From positions 1-45,297 of IMG/VR virus record IMGVR_UViG_3300035211_000019: a stretch of 45,297 nucleotides of DNA. One strand, written 5' to 3'. A program made the position numbers and the translations under genes. The notes beneath the pieces are model-generated. The model did no database searches. It was not told where the DNA came from and saw nothing but the letters and a program-made list of their open reading frames with translations. How positions within the stretch are numbered: position 1 is the first letter of the stretch; each line of letters starts with the position of its first letter. The stretch is from a virus. Below, one piece after another: positions 13,530 through 29,081 of this stretch.

Positions 13530-14822
13530 CTACTTGTTTCTTCTACCAGTCCAATCACCAGAAGGTATAAACATTTTTGGAAGTTGACTGTTATTAGCAA
13601 GATCCTTAACGTGTTTCTCGTTAAGTTTATAAGTAATACAACTTGTCATAAGCCACTGTGATGTTCTCGGGCTGCGAATATGGTAATCATTAACTCCTGA
13701 TAATGTAATTCGTACGTAGTAATCCGGATGCCCTTCAAGATGATCTAGATCATCAAAATTTGCTACAGCCCAGAACTCACCATATACAACACACTCTCTA
13801 TATCCTTCATAACTTGTAGATACTTGGCCTGGACCTCGCCCTGTAACTAGCGCAGGGTAAGAACTTGTTAGGTTGATTAGAAATGGAAAATTTCCGTACC
13901 TATTAATCCTGCCCTGTCCTAACAATGTACCACCACACCTAGTTATGACATGATTATTAACTTCGCCAGTCTTCAATGTTCCATACACGAACACAGGAAA
14001 CTTATTGTAAACTTGCAAAAAATGCTCATCTTGTAGCTCGTCTTGCAGGGCATGGATTATAGGAATAGCCAGTGCTCTGAATGTTACGGACTTTGAAAAC
14101 CAAATTTCAGTTCTTCTCAGTTGAGACTCATTTAAAACATCAAACAGATCACTTAAGAATCCGTGAATTCCGTAGTATCTTTGTTGTTCTGAAGTATTTA
14201 ATAACTTAATATAGTCTTTTGGCACAGAATCTGTATCCCTAAAAGTTTCAAGTAAATATTCAACTAATAGCTTGTTTCCGTACCTGCGAGATACAGCTGG
14301 ATTATGTGTTTCATAGACTTTTATATAATTTATAAAGCTTCTCCAGTCTTTAATGTTCTTATTATTATGAAAATTAGTAGTTAGAATCCCTCGAAGCAAT
14401 AGGGTATATAAGGATATTAGGACTCCATTTGTTACCCATTCACTAGATCCTTCTATAAGGTAGTATGATCTATTTCCCCATTCTGTTTTGTATTCAACAC
14501 GTTCTATTCGAGTAGGACTTTTAAACAAATACGTGTCTTCTAACTCGTTTAAATATCCAAGGAATCGTTCAACATTCTTCTCTTGAAGTCCGTTCTTAAG
14601 CGCCACAAGAGCAATTTTAGCAGGAGATATAGTCTTGCCGGCGCATTCTTGGTACTTGTCTCTACATGCACCCACTCCAAAAATGTTATGCAATACACCA
14701 TCGCCGGTTAATCTAAGCATATCAGAGCGTACATCCGACGCACCGTCTGGATAGTCTCCTCTGAAATAACTACTTAAATGCTCTTTTGTTTTCTTATAAT
14801 CAACCTTAGTATTCTCAAACAT
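13530..14822 (-). CDS. protein with C-terminal gamma-glutamylcyclotransferase (AIG2-like) domain
   Basis: Residues about 275-390 of this 430-aa protein form a GGCT-like domain. FVYGTLKTGEVNNHV is the substrate-loop motif, GNFPFLI and YPALV follow, and FDDLDHLEGHPDYYVR holds the expected catalytic Glu. These enzymes release gamma-glutamyl groups as 5-oxoproline. The first 270 residues match nothing known to me and look mainly helical. It is the last gene of a cassette with ATP-grasp, GATase and amidoligase genes, so it may trim or cyclise a gamma-linked product of those enzymes. Confidence 0.75.
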   Translation of the reverse strand: MFENTKVDYKKTKEHLSSYFRGDYPDGASDVRSDMLRLTGDGVLHNIFGVGACRDKYQECAGKTISPAKIALVALKNGLQEKNVERFLGYLNELEDTYLFKSPTRIERVEYKTEWGNRSYYLIEGSSEWVTNGVLISLYTLLLRGILTTNFHNNKNIKDWRSFINYIKVYETHNPAVSRRYGNKLLVEYLLETFRDTDSVPKDYIKLLNTSEQQRYYGIHGFLSDLFDVLNESQLRRTEIWFSKSVTFRALAIPIIHALQDELQDEHFLQVYNKFPVFVYGTLKTGEVNNHVITRCGGTLLGQGRINRYGNFPFLINLTSSYPALVTGRGPGQVSTSYEGYRECVVYGEFWAVANFDDLDHLEGHPDYYVRITLSGVNDYHIRSPRTSQWLMTSCITYKLNEKHVKDLANNSQLPKMFIPSGDWTGRRNK

Positions 14823-14840: not shown

Positions 14841-15647
14841 TTAAACTTCAAAACTTTTAAAATAATCAACATAAGCTGATAATGTTCGTGGATCACTCAT
14901 GCCTGGGGCGGAGTTTACTTCACAAACAACAGCCCTGCGAAGCTGGCCGTGTTTTATAATAGCCATCACATCTACACCAGCAAAATCAAGATCTAAAGCC
15001 TCAGTAGCACTAATAGCTAAATCTTCCAATACATGAGTTCTTAGTATGTTGTTCTTGGAGAATGTCCACCCACGTCCCCTACTACGTATGTGGCGGTCTT
15101 CACGCTCCAATCCCCACTTCCGCAGTGATTCAGCACTACGCTTTTTCTTTTGACGATAGTCGATTATCTCGTGGTAAGCCACATGTATTCTGAACTCATG
15201 AGTTTTTGGAAAACGTTTGGTATACAAAGGTAATCCGTGAGGTACTTGATCCCCGGGATTGATTATGTGTATACCTTGACCTTTTTTACCAGTGGTAGTT
15301 TCACGAGCAAAAACAATGTGACCTTCTCGTAACCACTCCTCAGCAGAGCGATGATCAGTAGTAAACTCTAATGTATCAACACCGTTATCCGTGAGAATAC
15401 GTAACGTGTTAAGTTTGTTTACTGCATTTGCTACATAATTAGGATGATTAAGGAACGCAACTCTAGGCAATTCATCTTCTCTCCACCATACTGGAACTTG
15501 AGACCTACCATAATTAATAATAACAGATTGATCTTGTATAGCAGGTTTAGGACGATGATTGACTGTAACTTCTTGAGCATTGAGGGCTCGTGCTATCTTA
15601 CGACCTATGCCGGGTACACCTTTGCGCGCTCGTAATACATAATACAT
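14841..15647 (-). CDS. RimK-like ATP-grasp ligase
   Basis: This 268-aa protein has the ATP-grasp signature in order: a nucleotide-binding Gly/Lys loop (ETTTGKKGQGIHII near 125), YTKRFPKTHEFRIHV near 155, DLDFAGVDVMAII near 228 and CEVNSAPGM near 248, where Glu and Asn bind magnesium. The family joins a carboxylate to an amine through an acylphosphate and includes RimK, which adds glutamates to a protein. Position between GGCT and GATase genes in one leftward cassette suggests a step in building a peptide or amide-bearing product. Confidence 0.85.
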   Translation of the reverse strand: MYYVLRARKGVPGIGRKIARALNAQEVTVNHRPKPAIQDQSVIINYGRSQVPVWWREDELPRVAFLNHPNYVANAVNKLNTLRILTDNGVDTLEFTTDHRSAEEWLREGHIVFARETTTGKKGQGIHIINPGDQVPHGLPLYTKRFPKTHEFRIHVAYHEIIDYRQKKKRSAESLRKWGLEREDRHIRSRGRGWTFSKNNILRTHVLEDLAISATEALDLDFAGVDVMAIIKHGQLRRAVVCEVNSAPGMSDPRTLSAYVDYFKSFEV

Positions 15648-15659
15648 AATTTTATCCTT

Positions 15660-17087
15660 TTATGGACTTATTAATTGACTAAGACCTGTTTGAAGCATTT
15701 CTTGAACACATTTTCCACATAATAATTCGTCGTTCTCATTAGTCCATCTTGCGTCTCCATCTGGAAGTTTTAGTTGATAGCACGGTATGTCTTTTTGACA
15801 ATAACAACACTTTTCTCCTGCGTCTCTCCATAATTTTTTTGCTTGCTTTCCACTTAATACAACACCGCCCGGCCCTCGCCATCCTGTAGTTTTGGCTGGT
15901 GCTGGTAGTTTAATTACATTACTATTAATTCGTATTGAGTCTACTGACCGGACCTCAATTTCTATATCATATCCTGGAGTTAGACAAAGATGCGAATCAG
16001 TTACACGTCCTTGAAACCACTCATTCTCATTAGCCTTGTGAGACGGAATTCCAGTAGCAACTACTTTAGCTTTAGTATTTACTTTAGGGGAATTATATAC
16101 TCCTTCCAGTCTGACATATACACTAGGTCCGTATGAAGAAACCTTCTCCTTCTTGAACGTAACTAGATCGCCGTACACAAGATCATAGTTCTTTAGTTGG
16201 TTATTGACTCTAACAGGATTTGAATACGAATTATAACCAGTAGAATTATTGGGGCCTGTTAAAGCACTTGAATTATCGTACGTTTGATTTGGTCTGTAAG
16301 TGTGCGAATAGTTTCTATTGCTCGTGTAATTACTTTTGGGCTCCTTATACAGCTCATATTTTAAGCACTTACACCTAATAGCAGGCTTTTCATCATACAC
16401 TTTTATCAATTGACCGGGCCGAACTCGATACAAATCCGTGTCTAACTTCTCGTTTCTTAGCAATGTCAAGCCATTACGTTCAGCAAGTGCACGTATTAAC
16501 CAAGTTTCACTAGCAAATAGGATTGAGTCACCGCCGTGGGCGAATCCATAGAATAATGGACGATCCTCATTACGAGTTAGGTATAAGCACTTCTGAGAAA
16601 TATTATACCACACCAGTGCGTACGAACCTTGTACTGTAGATAAGTACTGCAACAACTCCTTTTCAGTGTTGTGGTGCTTGCTCATTTCATCGTACATGCC
16701 ATCACTATCGACTTCAAAATCATTTGATCGATATTTGTAGTTTAATGTTCCGTTGTGAACTCCTACTACTCTGCCGTGCTTGAATGGATGAGCATTCCTG
16801 TCACTTATGGAGTTGGCTATTGTGGCGTATCTGTTGTGACCAACAACACATTTCCAGTTCTCATTGTTATTTGACCACTTTTCCATTAACTTTAATTGTA
16901 CAAAATCTGGTGCAGCCATAGCTCTTTTGTACAAAAACAACCTATTCTTCTGGTCAATGGAAAATACACCAGTGCCATGTCCGCCGCGTAATGTATCGCA
17001 GAATAAAGCATCACCAAACCACTGTTTCAATTCTTTATTTTGAAGATAAACATTTGACGTGGTTTTGTATCCAACTATACCGCAAAT
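15660..17087 (-). CDS. class II glutamine amidotransferase, ATT start, C-terminal zinc site
   Basis: The N-terminal half is a GATase II (Ntn hydrolase) domain: GHGTGVFSID, VGHNRYAT, NAHPFKHG, GVHNGTLNY, DSDGMYDEM, GSYALVWYN and RNEDRPLFYG are all present. The nucleophilic Cys of this family must be residue 2. Upstream of the first TTG (17030) the frame is open and reads ICGIVGYKTT directly after ATT at 17085-17087, with AGGAGG 8 nt before it; no ATG, GTG or TTG is available there. With ATT as start the 475-aa protein begins Met-Cys-Gly-Ile-Val-Gly. The C-terminus has a four-Cys pattern (CCYCQ, CGKC). It would release ammonia from glutamine, presumably for the partner ligases. Confidence 0.85.
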   Translation of the reverse strand: MCGIVGYKTTSNVYLQNKELKQWFGDALFCDTLRGGHGTGVFSIDQKNRLFLYKRAMAAPDFVQLKLMEKWSNNNENWKCVVGHNRYATIANSISDRNAHPFKHGRVVGVHNGTLNYKYRSNDFEVDSDGMYDEMSKHHNTEKELLQYLSTVQGSYALVWYNISQKCLYLTRNEDRPLFYGFAHGGDSILFASETWLIRALAERNGLTLLRNEKLDTDLYRVRPGQLIKVYDEKPAIRCKCLKYELYKEPKSNYTSNRNYSHTYRPNQTYDNSSALTGPNNSTGYNSYSNPVRVNNQLKNYDLVYGDLVTFKKEKVSSYGPSVYVRLEGVYNSPKVNTKAKVVATGIPSHKANENEWFQGRVTDSHLCLTPGYDIEIEVRSVDSIRINSNVIKLPAPAKTTGWRGPGGVVLSGKQAKKLWRDAGEKCCYCQKDIPCYQLKLPDGDARWTNENDELLCGKCVQEMLQTGLSQLISP

Positions 17088-17095
17088 AGCTAAGT

Positions 17096-17101
17096 CCTCC
17101 T
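17096..17101 (-). promoter_or_regulatory. Shine-Dalgarno AGGAGG deciding the ATT start
   Basis: A full AGGAGG on the minus strand lies 8 nt before ATT 17087, the codon preceding the required nucleophile Cys. An in-frame TAG overlaps the same motif (17100-17102), so translation cannot begin further upstream. The motif position fixes the start at or very near ATT. Confidence 0.75.
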
Positions 17102-17120
17102 ATCAAAGATTAATAAAATG

Positions 17121-18641
17121 TTAATTAGTGCTGTCGTCTTCATCAGATGAAATATTACTTCGAGTAATACCATCATCAGTTGTAGTCCATATAGTGGGGC
17201 GCGGAATTTCAGTCGTCGAAGCCCTAATAAACATATCACCTTCCCTTGTTGGGGATTCATTAGTGATGGACTCTTCTGAATATATTCGGCCCGAGTGTGT
17301 GCCTTGGTGTATTCTATTAGAAGTAGTGCTTCTTGTCGTAGGACTTGGAGCTACTTGAGGTATTTCACCAACCCACCTATCGAACGAAACTTCGTTTATA
17401 ATATCTTCCGCAGTTCGTAATGTATTACCTTCGCTGTCTTGATATATAATCAAACCTTCTTCAATTTCGTGTATTAAACGGGCCTCTATGCGATTAAGTA
17501 AGTTATTCCTATCTTCTATAGACATAGATCGTAATACTTGCTCATGCATACTTAATAATCTACCTTGCTGGGCTCTGGTTAAAAATAGTGATTTCATTAC
17601 TCCTAGTGGAGTAGATAACAAAATACACTCATCCCTATTCAAAGCGCGCACTGCCTGTGGAGATTCTTGATTTGCTACTTTTTTTTTGCGTGAGTGTTTT
17701 TTGCTATACTTAGTAAGCAACGCTTCCTCATCGTTACTGGCGGTACACTTGTCTCTCAATAAATTATTAAAGATTTTATTAAATTCCTTTCCAAACACCA
17801 TATCCATAGCTAATTTTATACCGAGTCTTATTTCATGAAGGACTGACTGGGACGTAACTTCAAAGTACTTATAGTACTCTTGAAATACATCGGTAAGGAA
17901 TGCCCTAATGTTTGAATCATTGACATCAGGAATATTAAATTCTCTTGTACGAAGTACATAACGCTTTAAACAAAGAATTATATTAATCCATCGAAGTATG
18001 GATGCCGAATCCCACGCTCCTTGGTGCATACGAAACTCAATTGAGCCATATGAGAACACTGCTGCAAAATTAATACCAGCATACTTAACAGTATCCTCAT
18101 TTAGATTATATCGAGTAGTTGTCTTACGACCAACTAGAAAATCAGAATATAACGCACCTAGTTCTCGAATTAACCCATCTTTTTTGCGAATTGGTACGCA
18201 GAAATGGTTGTTTCTGCGGTGTTCAGCAACATAGTTATACAGTAATGGCTCTGTTATCAAACATAAGGATATTAGATTTCCTAGCTCTGTTGTTGTTAGA
18301 TCACGTATATCCAAATGAATGTGCAAACTTGTACGCTCTGACATGTGTGGATATTTTGATGTCTTTTTCTCGATAGCATTTGAAAAAATGTTAATTGCTT
18401 TTACTAAATCCTGTCCAAATAAGGGCCACTTTAAGTGCGCCTCGACAGAATTATCACCACGTAAGCTGTGATCCTGTACAAAGGTCCAGTACTCACTAAC
18501 TTCTTTAAGAATTCCTGTGTGATTATCCAGTTGTTCGAGTTCAATCTCAATGCCAACATTGCTGTGCAATACTAATTTATTCGACTCTTTGAAGACGCGC
18601 ACATCTTCGGGTAAACCTAAAAACTTAGCGCTCTTTGTCAT
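17121..18641 (-). CDS. amidoligase-family enzyme (glutamine synthetase-like fold)
   Basis: Several motifs in this 506-aa protein follow the putative amidoligase family: NVGIEIELEQ (residues 28-37), a segment with HSLRGDNSVEAHLKWPL, SLHIHLDIRDLT near 105, and GSIEFRMHQGAWD near 205. These supply the Glu and His metal and ATP ligands of the COOH-NH2 ligase fold. The last 80 residues are Ser/Thr-rich and probably disordered. The family forms amide bonds between a carboxyl group and an amine using ATP. The start abuts the stop of the 18.6-19.3 kb gene. Confidence 0.8.
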   Translation of the reverse strand: MTKSAKFLGLPEDVRVFKESNKLVLHSNVGIEIELEQLDNHTGILKEVSEYWTFVQDHSLRGDNSVEAHLKWPLFGQDLVKAINIFSNAIEKKTSKYPHMSERTSLHIHLDIRDLTTTELGNLISLCLITEPLLYNYVAEHRRNNHFCVPIRKKDGLIRELGALYSDFLVGRKTTTRYNLNEDTVKYAGINFAAVFSYGSIEFRMHQGAWDSASILRWINIILCLKRYVLRTREFNIPDVNDSNIRAFLTDVFQEYYKYFEVTSQSVLHEIRLGIKLAMDMVFGKEFNKIFNNLLRDKCTASNDEEALLTKYSKKHSRKKKVANQESPQAVRALNRDECILLSTPLGVMKSLFLTRAQQGRLLSMHEQVLRSMSIEDRNNLLNRIEARLIHEIEEGLIIYQDSEGNTLRTAEDIINEVSFDRWVGEIPQVAPSPTTRSTTSNRIHQGTHSGRIYSEESITNESPTREGDMFIRASTTEIPRPTIWTTTDDGITRSNISSDEDDSTN

Positions 18642-19303
18642 TACACGTACTCTATTTGTATATCAGTTGGAAGATATGGGTTTAAGTATTCAAGCGACGA
18701 CGGAAATGTTATTACGTGTTCAGTTCCTTTTTTGTGGAGATACCCAACCTCAAGTTCTTTATAATTTAAAATTGGATACTTGTAAAGAGGCGACAACCTA
18801 AAAGCAAACACATCAGAGAAAGCTACACCTTGTACTCTAAGAGAACTTATACTATTAGCTGCTTGTGCAGCTGTAGGATACTCCTTATTGAATAAGTTAA
18901 TGATAAGTTTAGGGCGTAAAGTTGAGCTTATATTTCCAAGATGGTAGTCAATCTCTCGGAACGAAAACGCTTTCTTTACTGTTCGCCGCGGATAAAAAGT
19001 TATATAGGAGCAGTTCCTACCGAGATTAACATAACCCCTATCCGGTAATGTAAAGTCATATAGTGCTTGATTGAACGGAATCCATTTCCTAATTGTATTC
19101 CCTCGATCGCTTATTGGAAAAGTAACCTTGGAGCATTTTACTGTTAAAACTTCGATACCTCTTTCAGAATCACTACTCCGAAAATCATAAAAATAGTAAA
19201 TATCTCCGGTCTTTTTATTACGAGCAAATGTTTCAGAATAAGCTTGTCGTATCTCTCTTAGTACGTTAATAGCGACAGGATTATGAGTTTGTTTAGCAGG
19301 CAT
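18641..19303 (-). CDS. unknown protein of the amidoligase cassette
   Basis: ATG 19303 (220 aa) is preferred because AGGA lies about 10 nt upstream and the overlap with the previous gene is short; the ATG at 19336 would add 11 residues. The protein is mixed alpha/beta and rich in aromatic and basic residues (YYFYDFRSSDSERG, YITFYPRRTVKK, LSPLYKYPILNYKELEVGY). No family is recognised. Because it lies between two amidoligases with overlapping ends, it probably works in the same pathway. Confidence 0.7.
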   Translation of the reverse strand: MPAKQTHNPVAINVLREIRQAYSETFARNKKTGDIYYFYDFRSSDSERGIEVLTVKCSKVTFPISDRGNTIRKWIPFNQALYDFTLPDRGYVNLGRNCSYITFYPRRTVKKAFSFREIDYHLGNISSTLRPKLIINLFNKEYPTAAQAANSISSLRVQGVAFSDVFAFRLSPLYKYPILNYKELEVGYLHKKGTEHVITFPSSLEYLNPYLPTDIQIEYV

Positions 19304-20138
19304 TGGGATATTGTCCTGATAAGAAAGCATCTTCAATATAGTTGGAGTACAGTTCTTTTATTCGTTTTTTGTTGTCCGAATCGATGCTGTTGATTACGGA
19401 AAAATATTGATCTGGCACTCTTGCATCTGGATCTTCCAGCATTTGATTAGTCTTAGCAAGAGCTTGATCGACGTGCCACAACAAGTCCGAAGTAAGATTA
19501 CGCTTGGAGTTTTTAGGCAACCAGAAATTACTTGGAGTTCTGTACTCAAGGCCGTAGCCTGTAAACCTAAATTTTGATGCTTGACCATACAGAGTTCTAC
19601 GAGAATTAGGCGGCTCTATGCTAGCAGAGTACAATCCTGCATACATATCCAAGAACCTAACAAAATAATATCGCCTATCGTGACCTATGTGATCACCAGT
19701 AGCTTGGCTGAGACCAAGATGTAAGTGACCACCGACAGTGCGTAATCCGCCAACAAGAGCTGGGTCTATGCGCTGACACGAGGAGAAAGTTAGAGCACTA
19801 AAATCCTCGCGACATGAAAACTCCATTGCTCCGGGCTTTTTCAGTTGAGTATCAGCGAACTCATGGTCAATCTTGTCTGATAATTTCAAACCAAATTCTT
19901 TTTGTATAAATCGCTCCAGTTCCTTTGTAGAGTTTTCAATTGTTGCTATAAAACCCGTTCGAGACACCTGTGGATTAATATTAAACTCGACAGCTACATT
20001 ATCCGCAAATATCTTACAAGTATTAAGTTCAATAGCTTTTTCTTTTGGTGGTACACCAACATCAAGAGCAGACACAATGCTTCCTTTATTATCTTCAAGG
20101 AAGAACTCTGGGTCTGCTCCATAACTTATTATCCGCAT
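19293..20138 (-). CDS. phiEco32-like COOH-NH2 ligase type 2
   Basis: This 281-aa protein matches the phage ligase family named after phiEco32. SYGADPEFFLED (residues 5-16) is the signature start, DNVAVEFNINPQ near 46 follows, GGHLHLGLSQ near 142 carries the catalytic His, and GLEYRTPSNFWLP near 204 the conserved Glu-Arg. The family belongs to the amidoligase superfamily and is predicted to join carboxylates and amines. It is the first gene of the cassette. A 22-bp palindrome (20153-20174) sits 14 nt before its ATG and is the likely control site. Confidence 0.88.
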   Translation of the reverse strand: MRIISYGADPEFFLEDNKGSIVSALDVGVPPKEKAIELNTCKIFADNVAVEFNINPQVSRTGFIATIENSTKELERFIQKEFGLKLSDKIDHEFADTQLKKPGAMEFSCREDFSALTFSSCQRIDPALVGGLRTVGGHLHLGLSQATGDHIGHDRRYYFVRFLDMYAGLYSASIEPPNSRRTLYGQASKFRFTGYGLEYRTPSNFWLPKNSKRNLTSDLLWHVDQALAKTNQMLEDPDARVPDQYFSVINSIDSDNKKRIKELYSNYIEDAFLSGQYPNAC

Positions 20139-28670: not shown

Positions 28671-28834
28671 TGGGTACTTTAGGTACAGGATTCCTAGAAA
28701 ATGCCAGAAAAGCCCTTAGCGGGCGTACTAGGAAGATAAATAAGGCTCTAGATGCCACAACTAAGCCTCACTCTCCGCAAAAAGACAAAAAATCCAAAAA
28801 CAAGAAAAACTCGACCTACTACTCAGATGGCTAG
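28670..28834 (+). CDS. tiny basic protein, 54 aa
   Basis: The frame starts MGTLGTGFLENARKALSGRT and has a Lys-rich C-terminal half. The start overlaps the preceding stop (TAATG) and the stop overlaps the start of the HNH gene (ATGGCTAG). The junctions support translation. Function unknown. Confidence 0.5.
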   Translation: MGTLGTGFLENARKALSGRTRKINKALDATTKPHSPQKDKKSKNKKNSTYYSDG

Positions 28835-29081
28835 AAATTACAAGAAAGAATACGAGAATTATCAAGGGAAACCTGAGCAAATAAAGCGTAGGTCATCCAG
28901 AAATAAGGCTCGTAGGTTGCTGCAAAAGGAAGGCAAAGTCCATAAAGGCGACGGAAAAGACGTGGATCACAAGTCTGGAAACCCGAAAAACAACAAAAGA
29001 TCCAATCTTCAAGTCAAATCAAAGACCTCAAATAGATCGTATCCAAGGAACAAAAATGCAGGGAAAAAACGAGGTTCCTAA
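28827..29081 (+). CDS. HNH-type endonuclease-like protein
   Basis: From ATG 28827 the 84-aa product begins MARNYKKEYENYQGKPEQIK and has KDVDHKSGNPKNNKRSNLQV near residue 48, the DH...N...N core of a small HNH nuclease. The same short protein next to terminase genes is common and can nick at packaging sites. A longer frame from 28752 exists, with a better ribosome site, but would overlap the preceding gene fully. The second His of a classical HNH motif is not obvious, so activity is not assured. Confidence 0.7.
   Translation: MARNYKKEYENYQGKPEQIKRRSSRNKARRLLQKEGKVHKGDGKDVDHKSGNPKNNKRSNLQVKSKTSNRSYPRNKNAGKKRGS

Follow-up and report, generated by a model that had tools for sequence, protein, structure and literature searches.

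An ATT start codon in a phage class II glutamine amidotransferase gene and its possible relation to HNH homing elements

AUU and AUC are textbook rarities among start codons, and infC is the classic case. A viral DNA of 45,297 nucleotides (IMG/VR record IMGVR_UViG_3300035211_000019, analysed over its whole length and hereafter called the window) carries on its minus strand a gene for a class II glutamine amidotransferase (GATase) whose reading frame appears to open with ATT. The question raised by this locus is whether ATT is the working start of the gene and, if so, how a phage gene came to use such a codon.

The start region and its surroundings

The features of the region, from upstream to downstream of the gene, are as follows.

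19293..20138, minus strand: COOH-NH2 ligase of the same gene cluster (PF14395)
17121..18641, minus strand: upstream gene, Amidoligase_2 (PF12224)
17088..17120, minus strand: 33-nt leader from the amidoligase stop codon to ATT, with no HNH gene and no hairpin abutting the Shine-Dalgarno (SD) sequence
17100..17102, minus strand: in-frame TAG, overlapping AGGAGG and leaving no room for an N-terminal extension (read in the sequence)
17096..17101, minus strand: AGGAGG SD sequence, with an 8-nt spacer to ATT (read in the sequence)
17085..17087, minus strand: ATT start codon (read in the sequence; same codon in a second contig, ATT/ATC in relatives)
17082..17084, minus strand: TGC, which encodes the nucleophilic Cys of the N-terminus (residue 2 while Met is still in place; C2 invariant in the alignment)
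15660..17087, minus strand: class II GATase (Ntn-hydrolase) gene, 475 codons from ATT plus stop (GATase_6, PHROG 4736)
14841..15647, minus strand: downstream RimK-like ATP-grasp ligase (PF08443)
13530..14822, minus strand: protein with a C-terminal gamma-glutamyl cyclotransferase (GGCT; AIG2/GGACT) domain (PF06094)

The 475-aa product read from ATT matches Pfam GATase_6 (PF13522; 42.7 bits against a cut-off of 27) and PHROG 4736 (8.7e-56) and has the class II core motifs RG..TG, GH.R.AT, NAHPF, HNG and VDS in invariant columns, and phage homologues beginning with MCG align with it from residue 1. Its Cys stands at residue 2 directly after the start codon, as the sequence-only reading of this DNA had held for a class II enzyme, and this residue is invariant in the alignment. 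The gene is housed in a phage amidoligase cluster (COOH-NH2 ligase, Amidoligase_2, GATase, RimK-like ligase and GGCT-domain protein) with the same gene set as the clusters of the LUZ24/tf/phiEco32 type; unlike the window, LUZ24 and tf use ATG for the GATase.

On the minus strand, from 5' to 3', the frame reads TAG GAG GAC TTA GCT ATT TGC GGT ATA GTT GGA. On rereading, the earlier description proved accurate in that AGGAGG lies 8 nt before ATT and is overlapped by an in-frame stop, five codons upstream of ATT-TGC, and in that no ATG, GTG or TTG occurs between the stop and ATT; the same spacing of AGGAGG to the start is also found in O4, Klyazma and 275E43-1. The first canonical start downstream is the TTG at 17030-17028, 19 codons on, and we rejected it as the true start because Cys2 would be lost, again in agreement with that reading; an N-terminal propeptide was likewise rejected because the in-frame TAG forbids it.

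As in genes of the infC type, ATT is thus the sole in-frame start behind an SD sequence. We accept it as the GATase start because Cys must be residue 2, the frame has no other start, a strong SD sequence lies at a suitable distance, and the base is shared by a second contig. This contig (IMGVR_UViG_3300042731_001654) is 100% identical to the window over 13,425 bp, ATT included, and may not be a fully independent sample. A sequencing or assembly error at base 17085, where a single plus-strand C would turn the start into ATG, has only the faintest probability, in view of the second contig and of similar starts in many unrelated phages, including cultured ones. The start site is therefore well supported; that the protein is actually translated from ATT we infer from the sequence, and a lowering of GATase expression by this codon, which had been suggested at the outset, is plausible.

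Start codons of phage and cellular amidotransferases

Frequencies were taken only from start-blind samples, for which relatives were searched with an alignment lacking the N-terminus, the codon before TGY-GG was then read and near-duplicates were removed. The resulting 64 non-redundant phage relatives comprised 36 with ATG, 14 with ATT, 6 with ATC, 7 with TTG and 1 with GTG, and ATA was never found; the comparison of start codons across relatives, which had been proposed as a check of the window, thus gave ATT/ATC in 20 of the 64. In a partly biased collection of 163 non-redundant phage GATase loci, 42 have ATT/ATC directly before TGY-GG, and phages with such starts include cultured ones. A scan of viral contigs for the exact pattern of an SD sequence with ATH-TGY-GG, which demands GGAGG and ATH and is hence not used for frequencies, gave about 25 genuine GATase N-termini, in which the start was ATT or ATC and never ATA. 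A comparable pattern had 44 matches in about 85,000 bacterial and archaeal genomes, only two of which look like real GATase N-termini, most of the others lying inside longer frames or in very short ORFs. These two are an asnB-like gene in a Thermoanaerobaculales MAG with ATC behind GAGGAGG (L401) and a short glmS-like ORF in Glaciimonas starting with ATC (L386). The earlier claim that ATT starts are very rare consequently stands for cellular GATases and fails for the phage family, where ATT/ATC account for about 30%.

When 809 ORFs from the phage loci and the whole window were scanned for ATT, ATC or ATA starts with a strong SD sequence, 19 candidates were obtained. The convincing ones are GATases, namely nine identified by motif together with O4, K4, L192 and L198, for which ATT or ATC was picked one codon upstream; the other six are doubtful. 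Another type of class II GATase, a short protein of 212 aa, also has ATT starts, with GGAGGGTA, at L024, L039 and L044; upstream of the L039 gene lies one that resembles QueC in having an SGGMDST motif.

When start codons were mapped on a tree of 116 GATases, ATT/ATC had to change at least 20 times if only well-supported branches were counted and 30 times on the best tree, a number similar to that obtained with shuffled labels. Because of this scatter, a purely regulatory, conserved AUU is disfavoured.

Insertions and signals at the gene start

Close pairs of phages locate the change of codon precisely. In the Vibrio phage VpJYP1, whose GATase starts with ATG, ggtattaaattATG runs directly into TGTGGAAT, whereas in VPp1 ggtattaaattATG is followed by GTATAG, an HNH gene and finally aaccgttATT, after which TGTGGAAT resumes; the HNH gene has thus been inserted exactly between codon 1 and the Cys codon, and the GATase has lost its ATG and begins with ATT. 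In the same manner, PPAT has ggaggtttatttATG immediately before TGTGG, whereas its Paundecimvirus sisters O4, K4 and Ty have about 230 nt inserted at the very junction of ATG and TGTGG; in O4 the insert begins with CACAG after ggaggtttatttATG and ends with ATC. The old SD sequence and ATG stay upstream and the GATase restarts at ATC. This insert, whose limits are uniquely defined, encodes no recognisable HNH protein in O4 and lacks the end bases of group I or group II introns, and no Rfam group I/II intron matched the inserts tested, for two of them even at E up to 1.

An HNH gene lies between the start codon and the Cys codon at 15 loci, named phages included, where the GATases behind it start with ATT/ATC in 12 cases (Klyazma with ATC and 275E43-1 with ATT among those carrying the gene), with TTG in two (WD615 and T2S1) and with ATG in one, although the loci were chosen partly by HNH or by the ATH pattern and such raw counts are inflated. 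We place the main weight on the start-blind sample, on a start-blind HNH search and on the close pairs. In that search of viral contigs, each of the nine closest relatives of the HNH protein was immediately followed by a class II GATase, in every case one starting with ATT/ATC; in an earlier locus set, the HNH model had no match upstream of loci with other starts. Pfam HNH_3 reached or exceeded its cut-off in eight upstream ORFs, seven of which form one aligned family with conserved H/N/C positions. In phylogenetically independent pairs, the HNH gene goes with ATT/ATC in about 10:0 (p about 0.002). The gene is absent from 30 of the 42 ATT/ATC loci, the window included, and a search of all frames upstream of the remaining ATT/ATC loci found no remnant of it.

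The sole case of an HNH gene directly upstream of a GATase that keeps ATG is UFV-P2 (L361, 2501-2918). At four loci (L285, L286, L287 and L289), a copy of the old GATase start, ATGTGTG, persists at the left end of the HNH-bearing insert, about 450-550 nt before the GATase gene begins. It can pair with a sequence of the CACACAT or CGCACAT kind on or close to the start codon of the HNH gene, possibly as a hairpin that represses the endonuclease.

The median predicted SD pairing is -8.35 kcal/mol at ATT/ATC loci versus -5.95 kcal/mol at ATG loci (p = 1.6e-4), which suggests compensation for the codon. A small stem with perfect pairing, placed against the SD sequence so that its 3' arm stops 11-17 nt short of the start, was found at 23 of the 42 ATT/ATC loci versus 3 of the 107 ATG loci, at 9 of the 12 ATT/ATC loci with HNH, at 5 of the 14 TTG/GTG loci and in about 7% of control windows; its position is fixed while its sequence differs from locus to locus. 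The association of this hairpin with ATT/ATC has p about 1e-12 overall and is about 12:0 in phylogenetically independent pairs (p about 0.001).

The window itself is an insert-free case. Its upstream neighbour is Amidoligase_2, no HNH match was found upstream of the GATase, the leader (33 nt, ordinary) is as short as that of the empty relatives, and no stem abuts the SD sequence, the only one in this leader being weak, AT-only and apart from it. The only HNH_3 match in the whole window (28950-29033) lies beside terminase, away from the GATase; it is a weak match in a 109-aa ORF (28752-29081, plus strand) directly ahead of the terminase large subunit gene, and this ORF is probably the common packaging-associated HNH and not the element found at GATase genes. 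L228 (ATT) and L207 (ATG) also align through the start without any insert, showing that a base change alone can give ATT. Of the close relatives L254 and L255, one uses ATT and the other ATG; their leaders diverge immediately ahead of the start codon, and about 226 nt of additional upstream sequence is present in L255.

Explanations of the ATT start and known systems

Taking these observations together, we consider it probable, though far from assured, that ATT functions as the start of this gene and that, in this family, an HNH homing element has displaced the start codon time and again. AUU would be decoded by the initiator fMet-tRNA with the help of the strong SD sequence, and fMet would then be removed to expose Cys2. 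Codon 1 of phage class II GATase genes would be hit repeatedly by insertions of a small HNH homing-endonuclease element; as seen in the close pairs, insertion leaves the old SD sequence and ATG upstream with the inserted ORF, and the GATase receives the 3' end of the element, usually a short hairpin, a strong SD sequence and ATT/ATC right before TGY-GG. The HNH protein may cleave ATGTGYGG, and ATTTGYGG and ATCTGYGG, which do not rebuild this target, may resist it, so that phages would escape or carry the endonuclease by altering the freest base, the third of the start codon; ATT/ATC would then probably be kept as a cleavage-resistant start. Because Cys has to remain at residue 2, no other position is available for the GATase start; the codons that follow are fixed by Cys2 and Gly3, which leaves a resistant allele little to alter except the start codon. 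The predominance of ATT/ATC over the better starts TTG and GTG may be explained by the third-position G that the latter keep, and the absence of ATA by the out-of-frame ATG that it would create (ATATGY). Any such resistance would not be absolute, since UFV-P2 has both the HNH gene and ATG. The stronger proposal, that an HNH lineage is specialised on the starts of phage amidotransferase genes and that AUU/AUC is a selected cleavage-resistant start in about one third of the family, the window included, we hold only tentatively, at slightly below an even chance.

Several observations speak against the homing element: the window has neither HNH gene nor hairpin, most ATT/ATC loci lack the gene, L228 and L207 differ without an insert, UFV-P2 keeps ATG, and the O4 insert encodes no HNH protein. 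Endonuclease-free ATT/ATC loci may have lost the element or been attacked by it, and we infer that they are relics or resistant alleles, which for the window is the weakest link; its ATT may be a relic, a resistant allele or of independent origin, by expression tuning or plain substitution.

Expression control, in which AUU/AUC is selected because IF3 represses it, as at infC and sigR, GATase output is thereby kept low or coupled to IF3, and the HNH gene merely exploits a spacious leader, fits the use of the same codons by infC (PMC5472188), the absence of the HNH gene from most ATT/ATC loci and the 20:8 ratio of ATT/ATC to TTG/GTG in the start-blind sample, even though the latter are better starts. 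It is nevertheless unlikely: the stronger SD sequence counteracts a low rate, the codon is distributed on the tree as a random label would be and not as expected of a conserved regulatory trait, in independent pairs the presence of HNH predicts ATT/ATC, and in close pairs the codon changes together with the insertion. Neutral drift, in which the start codon wanders because Cys2 fixes its position, SD changes compensate, and the links with hairpin and HNH are side effects of longer leaders, would account for L228 and the window; we regard it as quite improbable because cellular GATases share the Cys2 constraint and yet nearly lack ATT/ATC, other genes of the same phage loci do not use these codons, and the hairpin association holds in independent pairs. 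RNA-level repair, whereby the inserts would splice themselves out as introns or be bypassed, giving a mature message that opens with ATG-TGY, would suit their position exactly between ATG and TGT, but it is very improbable, given the absence of Rfam group I/II matches to the inserts tested, the end bases of the O4 insert, the strong SD sequence right before ATT/ATC that it leaves unexplained, and the lack of any insert in the window and L228.

Both ingredients of the homing-element explanation, IF3-sensitive non-canonical starts and intron-less homing endonucleases in phage genes, are known (PMC5472188; PMC2988022; PMC11855218). The infC start, in the gene for IF3, is ATT in E. coli and ATC in Streptomyces, and Streptomyces sigR uses GUC (PMC5472188). 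The phage GATase would resemble them in relying for its translation on a kind of start codon disfavoured by IF3; in contrast to these single conserved regulatory genes, its codon flips repeatedly between close relatives and accompanies a mobile element. Free-standing homing endonucleases of T-even phages occur in split genes, such as mobE in nrdA of Aeh1, mobA in gene 60 of T4 and seg43 of Aeromonas phage 25, where a gene of the HNH or GIY-YIG kind, not accompanied by a self-splicing intron, is likewise inserted in a conserved phage gene that stays functional, and seg43 has a hairpin immediately upstream of an RBS that is not sequestered (PMC2988022), comparable to the SD-abutting hairpin of ATT/ATC loci. 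There, however, the protein is split in two, whereas the GATase loses its start codon only, so that the downstream gene must use a new start; another difference is that the free-standing endonucleases of T4 usually cut far from the insertion site. The ShiLan element, an HNH gene in an actinophage DNA methylase, is similar in having no recognisable intron or intein (PMC11855218) and differs in being read through within the methylase frame, whereas the GATase restarts after the insert. Typical of homing elements, the related loci have an intact HNH nuclease gene (HNH_3) that is present or absent at one precise conserved site between close relatives (VPp1/VpJYP1). In the literature searched, in which subscription papers were thinly covered, we came across no account of phage amidotransferases starting with AUU/AUC, nor of a start codon as the insertion point of a homing element.

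Start-codon identity may thus be shaped by a selfish endonuclease instead of by expression needs. As AUU/AUC has arisen many times in this family, reaching about one third of its members, with a stronger SD sequence and a hairpin as apparent compensation, the family forms a natural set for studying non-canonical starts. In O4, K4, Ty, Klyazma, 275E43-1 and VPp1 (L008, L269, L271, L275, L280 and L362), the deposited GATase CDS begins 10-54 codons downstream of ATT/ATC and lacks the catalytic Cys, a systematic annotation error by which the nucleophile has been omitted.
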